This document shows, one piece after another, positions 45,004 through 49,272 of a stretch of 64,000 nt of DNA. The position numbers and the translations under genes were made by a program. Under the pieces are notes generated by a model. It did no database searches. It had not been told where the DNA came from and worked only from the letters and a program-made list of their open reading frames with translations. Numbering within the stretch: the stretch's first letter is position 1; each line of letters starts with the position of its first letter. Where the stretch lies: assembly GCF_017352155.2 (NCBI RefSeq), contig NZ_CP071462.1, forward strand, positions 3,224,001-3,288,000, written 5' to 3'. This stretch comes from Haloterrigena alkaliphila (lineage in GTDB: Archaea; Halobacteriota; Halobacteria; Halobacteriales; Natrialbaceae).

Positions 45004-45098
45004 TGTTCGTGGGACCGACTACCGTTCGCGGAACCAACTACTGTTCGCTGAACCAACTATTGTTCGTGGAATCGACCGCCACTCGCGGCACCGATCAG
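45004..45098 (+). repeat. Five tandem imperfect 19-bp repeats at the 3' end of trmJ
   Basis: Units start at 45004, 45023, 45042, 45061 and 45080 and follow the pattern TGTTCGYGGAAYCRACTAY. The last unit reaches the trmJ stop codon (45095-45097). Confidence 0.75.
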
Positions 45099-45862
45099 TT
45101 TTCGGCGGGGCGTTCCGTCGCGCGTCGAACGATACCGAGGAGCGTGTTCGCCTCGCGTTCGGTTAGGTCCGCGCGGCCGAAGACGCGTCGCAGCATCCGC
45201 ATCGTCTTGTCGCGTTTCTCCTCGGGGTGGTTGAGTTCCGCGAGCAGGGCGGCCCACTGGTCGTACAGGCGATCGATCGTCGCTTCGGGGGCCCGGACCC
45301 GTTCGACGTCCGGTAGCTGGGTCCCGTCGTCGCCGAGGGTCAGCGAGCGGAGCTCGTACAGCGTGATCGTCGCGGCCTGTCCGAGATTGAGGACGGGATA
45401 CTCGGCGCTGGCCGGAATCGAGCAGATCTCGTCGATTCGGGCGAGTTCCTCGTTGGTCAGGCCGACGCGTTCGCGCCCGAAGACGAGCGCGGTGGGGGCC
45501 TCGACGGTCGGCAGCCGATCGGCGAGTTCGGCCGGCGTCGAGAACGGGAACCGGACGTGACGGCGATCGTCCTCGTTGGTGACCGCCGTACAGCCGATCG
45601 TGTGGTAGTTCTCGACGAGGTGGTCGAACGAGATTTCGGTCGCGTTCGGAAGCACGTCGTCTCGAGCGTGGCCCGCGTAGCCGTAGGCCTCGCCGTCGGG
45701 ATCGAGTTCCGGTGGATCGACCAGCAACAGGTCTGAGAAGCCGAAGTTCTTCATCGCTCGAGCGATGGTGCCGACGTTGCCCGGCGACTGGGCATCGACG
45801 ACGGCGACCGCTGGCGGCGTTCGATCCGTCGACTGCGCTCGTTCGGACGGATTTGAAGTCAT
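45095..45862 (-). CDS. trmJ: tRNA (cytidine/uridine-2'-O-)-methyltransferase TrmJ (SPOUT)
   Basis: The 255-aa protein has the three SPOUT motifs: QSPGNVGTIARAMKNFGF, ALVFGRERVGLTNEEL and LNLGQAATITLYELRS. These form the trefoil-knot SAM site. TrmJ methylates the ribose at position 32 of the tRNA anticodon loop. The C-terminal helical extension (about 190-245) is typical of TrmJ and separates it from the shorter TrmL. The ATG at 45862 is followed by a Thr/Ser-rich N-terminus before the first strand. It is read away from the origin that lies 200 bp upstream. Confidence 0.88.
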   Translation of the reverse strand: MTSNPSERAQSTDRTPPAVAVVDAQSPGNVGTIARAMKNFGFSDLLLVDPPELDPDGEAYGYAGHARDDVLPNATEISFDHLVENYHTIGCTAVTNEDDRRHVRFPFSTPAELADRLPTVEAPTALVFGRERVGLTNEELARIDEICSIPASAEYPVLNLGQAATITLYELRSLTLGDDGTQLPDVERVRAPEATIDRLYDQWAALLAELNHPEEKRDKTMRMLRRVFGRADLTEREANTLLGIVRRATERPAEN

Positions 45863-46034
45863 CGTTCGATGGGGATATCGTCTCGAGACGGCGGGTAGCC
45901 GTTTCGGTTCTTCGGTTCGGAGCGAGGTGGGGTCCTCGAGCGAACGAGGTCGTTCGGAGTCCTCGAGTTTTTTGTTGTTGGTTGTGGTTTCAGTTGATCA
46001 GGTGGACGACTGCTATCTAACAACGGTTTACCAT

Positions 46035-46078
46035 CTATTCTAGCTAGATCTAGAATAGTTCTAGACTAGTAGTCTAGA
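46035..46078. repeat. CTAG-rich double palindrome beside the origin
   Basis: First palindrome: CTATTCTAG (46035-46043) with CTAGAATAG (46050-46058), 6-nt loop. Second: TCTAGACTAGTAGTCTAGA (46060-46078), 8-bp stem, 3-nt loop. Six CTAG sites fall within 46040-46077, and a seventh is at about 46214. Confidence 0.9.
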
Positions 46079-46170
46079 TACGGCTTGCTACTGTGGCACA
46101 TAATGTCTTGGAAGCGGGTTGAGAGCAGTTAGTAGCCGTATATCGTGGAATTTCTTCCATCGTGAGGGGG

Positions 46171-46194
46171 CACACACCCCCGTCGCGTTTGTAA
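46171..46194 (-). other. Origin recognition box A
   Basis: On the minus strand it opens TTACAAACGCGACGGGGG and ends TGTGTG; the 24-bp core is identical to box C, in opposite orientation. The G-run and the spacing fit the archaeal ORB plan. Confidence 0.75.
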
Positions 46195-46226
46195 CGGTGT
46201 ATTCGTGTGGGGGACTAGTCGTGGAG

Positions 46227-46248
46227 CACACCTCCTCCGCGGATGTAA
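46227..46248 (-). other. Origin recognition box B (diverged)
   Basis: On the minus strand it opens TTACATCCGCGGAGG and ends AGGTGTG; it keeps the TTACA, CGCG and GTGTG blocks while the G-run is interrupted. Confidence 0.55.
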
Positions 46249-46319
46249 AATCGCGTCGTCTACGGGGTGAATTCTGACAAATTCCGGGATACGCTTCCAC
46301 CCCACCCCTCCGTTCACAC

Positions 46320-46343
46320 TTACAAACGCGACGGGGGTGTGTG
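46320..46343 (+). other. Origin recognition box C
   Basis: Opens TTACAAACGCGACGGGGG and ends TGTGTG. It is the exact inverse repeat of box A at a distance of about 125 bp. Confidence 0.75.
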
Positions 46344-46493
46344 TCCCATGCGCGGGCGGCAATCGCGGCCGAAAGGGGCAATATCACCCCATATCAGCGG
46401 CGTATGGCCGATTCGCACTCGAGCGAGTGCGTCGGTCGCCACTCCGATCGCTCGCCGAGTTCCGCCGAACACCGCCGAAGACCGTCAGTACCG

Positions 46494-46514
46494 TTACATC
46501 CGCGATGGGGGTGT
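46494..46514 (+). other. Origin recognition box D (diverged)
   Basis: Opens TTACATCCGCGATGGGGG and ends TGT, in the same orientation as box C; preceded by CCG as in box A. Confidence 0.6.
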
Positions 46515-46689
46515 CGGTGGCTGGCACGCTCGAGTCACGGTTCGGTTAGAAGCGCGAGACCGCTGGTCAGAAGGGCATACTATCACGGGTGTGAATACTG
46601 CCTCCTGGTGGCCTGTGACGGGATATTTACATCCGCGAGCGATCTCCATACCTTTATCCCAGTCCAGGCGGAAGGCACGGCGTACCGCA

Positions 46690-47934
46690 ATGTCCGCCAA
46701 CGACGATCGTGATCCACTCTTTCAGTACGACGATCCGGTCTTCGCCGACGAGCGATTGCTCGAGATCACGCATCTCCCCGGCCCGGACCGGATCGTCGGA
46801 CGCGACGAGCAGATGCAACGGGTTGCGGACGCCCTGAACCCGGCTATCTTCGGAAGCGAGCCCAATCACCTGTTCATCTTCGGGAAGACCGGGACCGGCA
46901 AATCGTTGATCTCCCGGTCGGTTACCCAACGCGTCATCTCGGAAGCACAGCGCGACGACGTCACCGTCAAGTACGCCTTCATCGACTGCGGCGAGCAGAA
47001 CACCGAGGCGTCGATCGTGAAGACGATCGCCCAGATCGTCAACGAACCCGACCGCAGCGGCATCAACGTCCCCGATCGGGGGCTCGGCACCGGCGACTAC
47101 TACAAGCGCCTCTGGCAGGCCGTCGACCACTGCACCGACGTCACCATCGTCATCCTCGACGAGATCGACATGCTCGAGGACGACGAGGTGCTCCGCAAAC
47201 TCTCCCGCGCAGGCGAGAACCGCCGCATCTCGGACTCGAGCATCGGCATCATCGGCATCTCGAACAAGATCGACTTTCCCGACCACCTCTCGGAACGCGT
47301 CAAGTCCAGCCTCTCGCGGGACGAACTCGTCTTCTCGCCGTACGACGCCAATCAACTCGTCGAGATCCTCGAGAAGCGACGGGACGCCTTCCACGACGGC
47401 GTGCTCTCGGACGACGTGATCCCGCTTACTGCCGCCCTCGCCGCCCAGGAGCACGGCGACGCGCGCAAGGCGATCGACATTCTCCGGAACGCGGGCCGCA
47501 TCGCGAAGAAACAGAACGCGACCCGAGTCACGGCGGACCACGTCCGCGACGCCAAGGAGAAGACCGAAGCCGACCGCTTCAACGAACTGATCGAGGGGTC
47601 GCCCCAGCAGGCCAAGGCGATTCTCTACTCGCTGACGCTGCTCACCGAGAACAGTTCGGAGAAAGAGTTCCCGACGAAGATCATCTACAACCAGTACAAG
47701 TCGATCGCCCGACAGCTCGACTTCGACGTGCTCTCCGAGCGACGCGTCCAGGAGATCCTCCAGGAGCAGAACTTCCTGAACGTGATCCAGTCCGAGCGGG
47801 AGGGCCGGGGTCGTGGCCGCGGCGCTCACGCCAAACACCGTCTGCTCGAGAACCCGACCATCGTCAAGAAGGTCCTCTTGCGCGATTCCCGCCTGGCGGT
47901 GCTCGCTGAGGACGACGAGGAAGCCGCCGCGTAG
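46690..47934 (+). CDS. orc1: Origin-binding initiator Orc1/Cdc6
   Basis: The 414-aa protein has the AAA+ core with Walker A FGKTGTGKS (64-72), Walker B VILDEID (154-160) and sensor 1 in IIGISNKIDF, then a C-terminal winged helix (about 300-395, RRVQEILQEQNFLNVIQ). It binds ORB sites and starts replication. The Lys- and Arg-rich REGRGRGRGAHAKHR stretch is typical for the DNA-binding tail. The ATG at 46690 is used because the upstream frame is not coding-like. The gene lies at the edge of the ORB cluster and is very probably its cognate initiator. Confidence 0.95.
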   Translation: MSANDDRDPLFQYDDPVFADERLLEITHLPGPDRIVGRDEQMQRVADALNPAIFGSEPNHLFIFGKTGTGKSLISRSVTQRVISEAQRDDVTVKYAFIDCGEQNTEASIVKTIAQIVNEPDRSGINVPDRGLGTGDYYKRLWQAVDHCTDVTIVILDEIDMLEDDEVLRKLSRAGENRRISDSSIGIIGISNKIDFPDHLSERVKSSLSRDELVFSPYDANQLVEILEKRRDAFHDGVLSDDVIPLTAALAAQEHGDARKAIDILRNAGRIAKKQNATRVTADHVRDAKEKTEADRFNELIEGSPQQAKAILYSLTLLTENSSEKEFPTKIIYNQYKSIARQLDFDVLSERRVQEILQEQNFLNVIQSEREGRGRGRGAHAKHRLLENPTIVKKVLLRDSRLAVLAEDDEEAAA

Positions 47935-48078: not shown

Positions 48079-49272
48079 ATGCACAACGTCGACGCGGCGG
48101 GGCTGGGAATCGGCGACGAACACCCGCCCCGGATCATGGGCGTGTTGAACGTCAGCGAGGAGTCCCCCTACGATCCCAGCGTCTACGACGACCCCGGCGA
48201 GGCGGCCCGATACGTCGACGAAGAACTGATCGGCGAGGGCGCCGATATCGTGGATATCGGCCTCGAGTCGGCGAACAAGCGCTTCGACGTCCTCTCGGCT
48301 GAGGAGGAACTCGAGCGGCTCCACGTCGCGCTGGAGACGATCCAGAGCGTCGCCGGCGACGCCGTCTTCTCGATCGAGACCCGCTACGCCGAGGTGGCCG
48401 ACGCGGCGCTCTCGCGGGGGTTCGACATGGTCAACGATATCGCGGGGTTCGCGGACCCGGAGATGCCGGCCGTCTGCGAGGACCACGACGCCGCCGTCGT
48501 GAAGATGGCGAGTCCGCCGGACCTCGAGCGGCCCGGTGCGGTCGAGGAGACCGACTGGTCGGCGCGGAAGTCCGCCGACTGGGCCGCCGAGGCCGACTAC
48601 GTCGATCAGATCTACGAGGCTCTCAAACAGAACGGCCTGACCGACAAGACGATCGTCGACCCCGCCTTCGGCGGTTGGAGCGAAGCCCAGACGATCGCGG
48701 ACGACCGGGAGACGTTCCGGCGACTGCGCGAGTTCCGGGCGCTCGACCGGCCGATGCTGGTCTCGATCAATCGGAAGAACTTCCTCGGCGAGATCGCGGG
48801 GCGAGAGACCGAGGAGCGACTGCCGGTCAGCCTCGCGGCCACCTCGATGGCCGTCGAACGCGGCGCGCACGTGATCCGGACCCACGACGTGGCGGAGACG
48901 CGCGACGCGGCGCTGATCGGGGACGCGTTCACCGACCGCTCGCGAGCGACCGAGGACGGGCTCTCGGTGGCTCGGCTGGACGTCCGCTCGAGTCGGGACC
49001 TCGAGGCGCACCTCCGGGAACGCGGCGTCGATTCTGCGGTCGCCGGCGACTGGTATTCACTGGCCGTCGAAATCGACGGACTCGACGCGGACGATCGAGA
49101 CCGACTCGCTTCGATCGCGACCGATCGCGACGCGTCCGTGCACAGTGTTCCCACTGGACGTATACTACTCCTCGGGACGACAGTCGGAATTTCCGGGATA
49201 CTGTCCCGTCTGCGCGAAAAAGAGGGCGATCTGCGCGCGCTCGGCGACACTCTCGAGCGAACCCTCGAGTAA
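48079..49272 (+). CDS. folP: Dihydropteroate synthase-like protein with C-terminal extension
   Basis: The 397-aa protein has an N-terminal TIM-barrel pattern of dihydropteroate synthase: IMGVLNVSEESPYDPS (family GILNVTPDSFSD), GADIVDIGLESANKR (family GADIIDVGGEST), FSIETRYAEVADAALSRGFDMVNDIAG. The first signature is altered (the SFSD loop reads SPYD). The C-terminal about 125 aa is an extra domain (SRDLEAHLRERGVDSAVAGDWYSLAVEI) not seen in classical FolP. It would join a pterin and an aminobenzoate-type ring in folate or methanopterin-type cofactor synthesis. The mptE gene 300 bp downstream strengthens this. Confidence 0.82.
   Translation: MHNVDAAGLGIGDEHPPRIMGVLNVSEESPYDPSVYDDPGEAARYVDEELIGEGADIVDIGLESANKRFDVLSAEEELERLHVALETIQSVAGDAVFSIETRYAEVADAALSRGFDMVNDIAGFADPEMPAVCEDHDAAVVKMASPPDLERPGAVEETDWSARKSADWAAEADYVDQIYEALKQNGLTDKTIVDPAFGGWSEAQTIADDRETFRRLREFRALDRPMLVSINRKNFLGEIAGRETEERLPVSLAATSMAVERGAHVIRTHDVAETRDAALIGDAFTDRSRATEDGLSVARLDVRSSRDLEAHLRERGVDSAVAGDWYSLAVEIDGLDADDRDRLASIATDRDASVHSVPTGRILLLGTTVGISGILSRLREKEGDLRALGDTLERTLE

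Follow-up and report, generated by a model that had tools for sequence, protein, structure and literature searches.

A likely second, lineage-conserved chromosomal replication origin of Natrialbaceae with its own Orc1/Cdc6 and an adjacent tract of CTAG palindromes

The region directly upstream of an orc1/cdc6 gene on the chromosome of Haloterrigena alkaliphila is likely to be a second chromosomal origin of replication that is conserved within the Natrialbaceae lineage and equipped with its own Orc1/Cdc6 initiator. This assessment, which is based on sequence comparison, covers the origin itself and does not extend to a role of methylation. The analyzed stretch of 64,000 nt (hereafter the window; NZ_CP071462.1, positions 3,224,001-3,288,000, assembly GCF_017352155.2) contains an initiator gene, four origin recognition boxes (ORBs) with conserved order and spacing that set the region apart in the genome, mostly retained neighboring genes and a local enrichment of CTAG. 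Genome-wide searches covered 4.27 Mb in 3 contigs, of which C1 is the chromosome. The features of the region, in window coordinates, are the following.

45095-45862, minus strand: TrmJ/SpoU-type RNA methyltransferase gene, left border, divergent from orc1/cdc6 (PF00588 and TIGR00050, over cut-off)
46035-46078, no strand assigned: CTAG tract, candidate unwinding element and candidate m4C site cluster (six CTAG at 46040-46077)
46171-46194, minus strand: ORB 1, exact core with G-string (repeat and genome core search)
46228-46248, minus strand: ORB 2, two mismatches to the consensus (relaxed pattern search)
46320-46343, plus strand: ORB 3, exact core with G-string, perfect inverse of ORB 1 (repeat and genome core search)
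46494-46514, plus strand: ORB 4, exact match to the relaxed consensus (relaxed pattern search)
46627-46638, plus strand: half element TTACATCCGCGA without G-string, close to the orc promoter (repeat family D3)
46690-47934, plus strand: orc1/cdc6 initiator gene, 414 aa (PF22703, PF09079, PF13401, TIGR02928)
48079-49272, plus strand: dihydropteroate-synthase-like (DHPS-like) gene, conserved right neighbor (PF00809, TIGR01496)

A preceding sequence-only reading of the window had proposed an origin in a gene-free region of about 800 bp that carries a 24-bp core in perfect inverted orientation and two diverged copies of it. The intergenic interval between the TrmJ/SpoU-type gene on the minus strand and orc1/cdc6 on the plus strand spans 827 bp (45863-46689), in agreement with that estimate. 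ORB 1 (46171-46194), read on the opposite strand, is identical to ORB 3 (46320-46343; TTACAAACGCGACGGGGGTGTGTG), and the inverted repeat that the two form extends to 33 nt at 91% identity; the diverged copies were recovered at 46228-46248 (inverted) and 46494-46514 (direct), within one base of the positions originally given. The sequence features expected of a haloarchaeal orc/cdc6-adjacent origin are all in place: besides the initiator gene, there are ORB-like elements in inverted orientation that terminate in a G-string, and a stretch rich in AT. Even when 3 mismatches are allowed, the 22-bp core is confined in the whole genome to two places, both within the origin region, and hence is not scattered over unrelated regions, the pattern that the sequence-only reading had named as evidence against its proposal.

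When the whole genome was searched with a relaxed pattern (TTACANNCGCGANGGGGGTGT, up to 3 mismatches), seven matches were found, compared to one for the reversed control; the four ORBs of the window comprise three exact matches and one of the two matches with two mismatches. The array has the orientation (-)(-)(+)(+), with two elements on each strand. In three of the four elements, the G-string that follows CGCGAn is GGGGG; in ORB 2, it is GGAGG. Comparisons of arrays, neighbors and CTAG were made on 58 related loci retrieved with the Orc protein as query. The order (-)(-)(+)(+) recurs at the Natrialbaceae loci, where ORB 1 and ORB 2 are usually 54 bp apart and ORB 3 is usually located 89-92 bp from ORB 2, so that the spacing of the three left elements is nearly fixed and the position of ORB 4 is more variable; the control for the array scan yielded one comparable match in 69.6 kb of coding sequence. 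The consensus summed over the relatives is TTACA(A/T)(A/C)CGCGANGGGGGTGT. A fifth ORB near -144 is weakly discernible in relatives, and the scan of the window did not recover one. Separately, a lone ORB-like element with two mismatches is located at C1:3480158-3480178, just downstream of an RNase-J-like gene; neither CTAG nor orc was seen in the stretch read around it.

The same elements could be explained as operators that control orc transcription, or as sites that titrate Orc, with no origin involved. The array is indeed located upstream of orc, its nearest ORB being about 175 bp from the start of the gene, and ORB-rich titration regions have been described downstream of oriC2 in Haloarcula hispanica (PMC3936714). 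However, an inverted set of G-string elements that, together with the AT-rich tract, extends over about 500 bp exceeds the needs of a promoter operator, and we consider this explanation highly improbable.

The initiator of the window combines an AAA+ domain, a Cdc6 lid and a C-terminal winged helix, and has solved homologues (2v1u and 2qby). It is 81-98% identical in most of the sampled Natrialbaceae, with a few genomes of the family having no close copy, and 64-77% identical in other, scattered genomes. Of the six genes in the genome that carry Cdc6_C, three are chromosomal. The universal Orc, which is represented in all 391 genomes of the class (class-wide search), is encoded at C1:1361692-1363500, passes the NF001625 cut-off and is flanked by genes for a GTP-binding protein (gbp) and a signal peptidase, the neighbors given for oriC1 in a review (PMC4010727). 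Against the same model, the window Orc scores 322 bits, with the cut-off at 501. Given the presence of the universal Orc with gbp and signal peptidase at C1:1.36 Mb and of a different Orc family in the window, identity of the window site with oriC1 was ruled out. The site is very probably an Orc1/Cdc6-linked origin of the known haloarchaeal kind, other than the universal oriC1. It shares with the oriC1 of Haloarcula hispanica the inverted ORBs, the G-string, a dedicated initiator and an AT-rich stretch, but differs from haloarchaeal oriC1 in the Orc family, in the ORB sequence (TTACAnnCGCGAnGGGGGTGT instead of TTCCACnnGAAACGAAGGGG) and in the placement of the AT-richest tract, which is found outside the inverted ORBs instead of between them (PMC3936714). 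The universal oriC1 Orc itself (L112:2690-4501) contains a long insert inside the AAA+ domain, at roughly residues 175-300; an intein was considered and rejected, the insert being an acidic low-complexity linker.

The gene neighborhood is mostly conserved as well. Among the 58 loci, trmJ is divergent and upstream of orc in 44, the DHPS-like gene is downstream of orc in 40, both neighbors are kept in 39 and at least one of them in 45. Two relatives (L046 and L048) have a different gene context and nevertheless keep the ORBs together with the CTAG tract, which ties the tract to the origin rather than to trmJ. In the survey of Wu et al. (2012), haloarchaeal genomes likewise carry several inverted sets of G-string ORBs directly upstream of orc/cdc6, but the non-oriC1 origins were described as scattered almost randomly, and the two families looked at closely (oriCa and one type of oriCb) largely lacked a shared gene context (PMC3528665). 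Because of this picture, the conservation of the window origin across a family, with mostly the same neighbors, is noteworthy: a clearly delimited second origin that is retained across a large family of haloarchaea would stand against the view of non-oriC1 origins as scattered and transient.

Conservation of the site also bears on the possibility of a dormant or conditional origin, where ORBs and orc are retained, the wild type starts replication from oriC1 and the window site fires only once other origins are lost. Such behavior, firing only on loss of the other origins, has been reported for Haloferax mediterranei, and ORB-bearing, orc-linked haloarchaeal origins that are inactive are documented (PMC4595724, PMC3936714; see also PMC3528665). 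The genome possesses a complete oriC1, including a dedicated Orc and the gbp and signal peptidase neighbors, and a few relatives (L022, L045) have weaker ORBs or have lost the tract, which fits dormancy. Against it, nearly all sampled members of the family have retained both the exact array and the initiator, beyond what would be expected for a rarely used site, and we consider dormancy unlikely. The cumulative GC skew, computed from 39 samples of 20 kb, is weak; it stays low over a plateau at about 2.6-3.2 Mb and climbs after 3.3 Mb, but has other local minima as well, and neither supports nor refutes an origin at 3.27 Mb.

The window site and oriC1 are 0.499 of the chromosome apart, i.e., almost exactly opposite. 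A separation of at least 0.40 of the chromosome was found in 12 of 14 genomes; when the candidate CTAG methyltransferase gene described below was used as a control, the result was again 12 of 14. Because the control gene behaves alike, the antipodal pattern is attributed to shared gene order, and such placement was rejected as a feature of the origins.

Between trmJ and ORB 1, the region contains six CTAG in 38 bp (46040-46077), a feature absent from the sequence-only reading. CTAG is rare in the window (25 in 64 kb compared to 91 expected), and the sampled chromosome has one CTAG per 2.8 kb. Dinucleotide shuffling of the intergenic region (5000 times) or of its AT-rich part (20000 times) never produced six CTAG in 38 bp, and a whole-genome scan for three CTAG at short distance identified seven places, of which the window tract is by far the densest; no orc was recognized beside those of the six less dense clusters that were read. 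Nowhere in the region is the AT content higher than in the tract (65% in 60 bp, with only 38-47% between the inner ORBs), which lies to the left of the ORB array and forms two adjacent palindromes (fold z -3.4). CTAG clusters occupy the same relative place in about 50 of the 58 relatives, in surroundings that are not conserved in sequence; in the Halorussus relatives, the tract is missing at the counterpart of the window origin. In the tracts of 39 origins, CTAG is 3.0-fold enriched over dinucleotide shuffles (z 20.5) and TATA, AATT and TTAA are at or below the shuffle expectation; accordingly, a mere by-product of AT-richness was rejected as the source of the CTAG.

By analogy with known Orc1/Cdc6 families, the following sequence of events can be envisaged. 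Orc produced from the adjacent gene would use its winged helix and AAA+ domain to bind the four ORBs, which form inverted pairs, with the G-string providing binding strength at high salt. Strain imposed on the DNA by the bound complex would melt the AT-rich CTAG tract, which flanks the array on its left, and thereby open it for MCM loading. Binding and opening are the most likely course, and activity of the site as an origin is expected on the same grounds. That melting starts in the CTAG tract is speculative: the position of the tract outside the inverted array, unlike the usual layout, counts against it, and hence the melting stretch need not be the tract.

CTAG clustering extends to other origins. 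The oriC1 of this genome contains seven CTAG in about 200 bp, most of them between the inverted ORBs, and the origin of the C2 replicon contains four between inverted G-string elements. Such an arrangement was found neither at the third chromosomal orc of the genome nor at the other Orc families fetched from Natrialbaceae relatives. In an alignment of Natrialbaceae oriC1, several CTAG columns are nearly invariant, often inside CTAGTAA, amid diverged sequence. At these origins (L198-L217), the CTAGTAA words lie between the ORBs in a single orientation, with spacings near whole helical turns (e.g., 20, 31, 10, 21, and 21 bp). The oriC1 comparison also revealed CTAG clusters, with at least four CTAG in 100 bp, in 7 of 8 genomes examined from family f3. 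The clustering of CTAG upstream of haloarchaeal orc genes is thus an already known phenomenon: Blow et al. (2016) reported such clusters upstream of orc1/cdc6 and their correlation with an orphan CTAG methyltransferase (PMC4752239; HG1 in PMC10609329). The present genome shares with that description the CTAG cluster upstream of orc, and it has a candidate for the orphan CTAG methyltransferase. Whereas the published data are density plots, the present analysis adds fine structure, namely the tract at base level, its place relative to the ORBs, palindrome specificity and turnover.

In Halobacteria, a widespread orphan m4C methyltransferase acts on CTAG (PMC5867850, PMC6471742, PMC10609329). A candidate gene of this genome is located at C1:3529463-3530527 (L074:1426-2490; PF01555). 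The candidate is present in 333 of the 391 genomes of the class, among them all Natrialbaceae sampled; the genomes that lack it belong mainly to one Halorubrum-like genus. This distribution resembles that published for cHG U/HG1 (PMC6471742, PMC10609329) and therefore fits that family, of which the PF01555 protein is likely to be a member. The link to CTAG was tested at oriC1 in family f4, where presence of the gene varies. Outside the Halorubrum-like genus, CTAG occurs between the oriC1 ORBs in 15 of 18 genomes with the methyltransferase compared to 2 of 14 without it, the respective densities being 6.46 and 0.62 per kb between the ORBs and 0.36 and 0.30 in the flanks, and CTAG differs most among 16 palindromes between methyltransferase-positive and -negative genomes. 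Within the genus itself, CTAG and the gene are not associated (1 of 7 with and 10 of 36 without the gene). Clusters of at least three CTAG are absent from f4 oriC1 with or without the methyltransferase, except in one genome. Phylogenetically independent pairs yielded four cases for the association, three against it and five ties. Given that the raw counts are strong and the independent pairs neutral, we do not claim the association: the link between the methyltransferase and the origin CTAG is suggestive, not established. The correlation seen by Blow et al. is weak here once ancestry is considered, and the published one may share the same weakness.

There is about an even chance that the tract has no methylation role at all and was selected for easy bending or melting, or for a CTAG-binding protein, an alternative that competes only with the methylation part of the interpretation. 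It is consistent with the preference for 4-6 bp spacing of CTAG pairs and the mostly A/T flanks in the 39 tracts, with the longer CTAGTAA word at oriC1, with the many methyltransferase-bearing genomes that have no CTAG cluster at oriC1 and with the neutral pair test. On the other side are the lack of enrichment of other easily melted palindromes, the f4 contrast outside the Halorubrum-like genus, and the fact that none of the methyltransferase-negative genomes examined has three CTAG in 100 bp at oriC1.

The methylation interpretation is speculative: the CTAG of the tract might be m4C-methylated by the orphan methyltransferase of the genome, and hemimethylation after replication might influence re-initiation or the ease of melting. 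In its fullest form, m4C hemimethylation of a CTAG array within or next to the unwinding element would distinguish new from old origins and limit re-initiation, at oriC1 and at the window origin, as an independently evolved counterpart of Dam/SeqA. We consider this possible but doubtful; the methyltransferase-bearing genomes without an oriC1 cluster, the Halorussus loci without the tract and the neutral pairs all count against it. The similarity to Dam/SeqA control of Escherichia coli oriC would consist in a cluster of short palindromes at the origin and a possible hemimethylation signal, with m4C on CTAG here and m6A on GATC there. No reader protein for m4C CTAG is known, and the parallel goes no further than analogy. 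Methylation control of the window origin is treated as hypothetical; CTAG methylation may control firing, may alter how easily the DNA melts or may play no part. The base-level map of the origin CTAG arrays makes the role of the orphan methyltransferase testable by point mutations.

Four of the less dense CTAG clusters of the genome lie at C1 2.55-2.62 Mb (2549088, 2592231, 2611836, and 2618743). In the 20-kb samples taken at 2.50 and 2.60 Mb, GC content is below and CTAG frequency above the average, possibly marking a genomic island.
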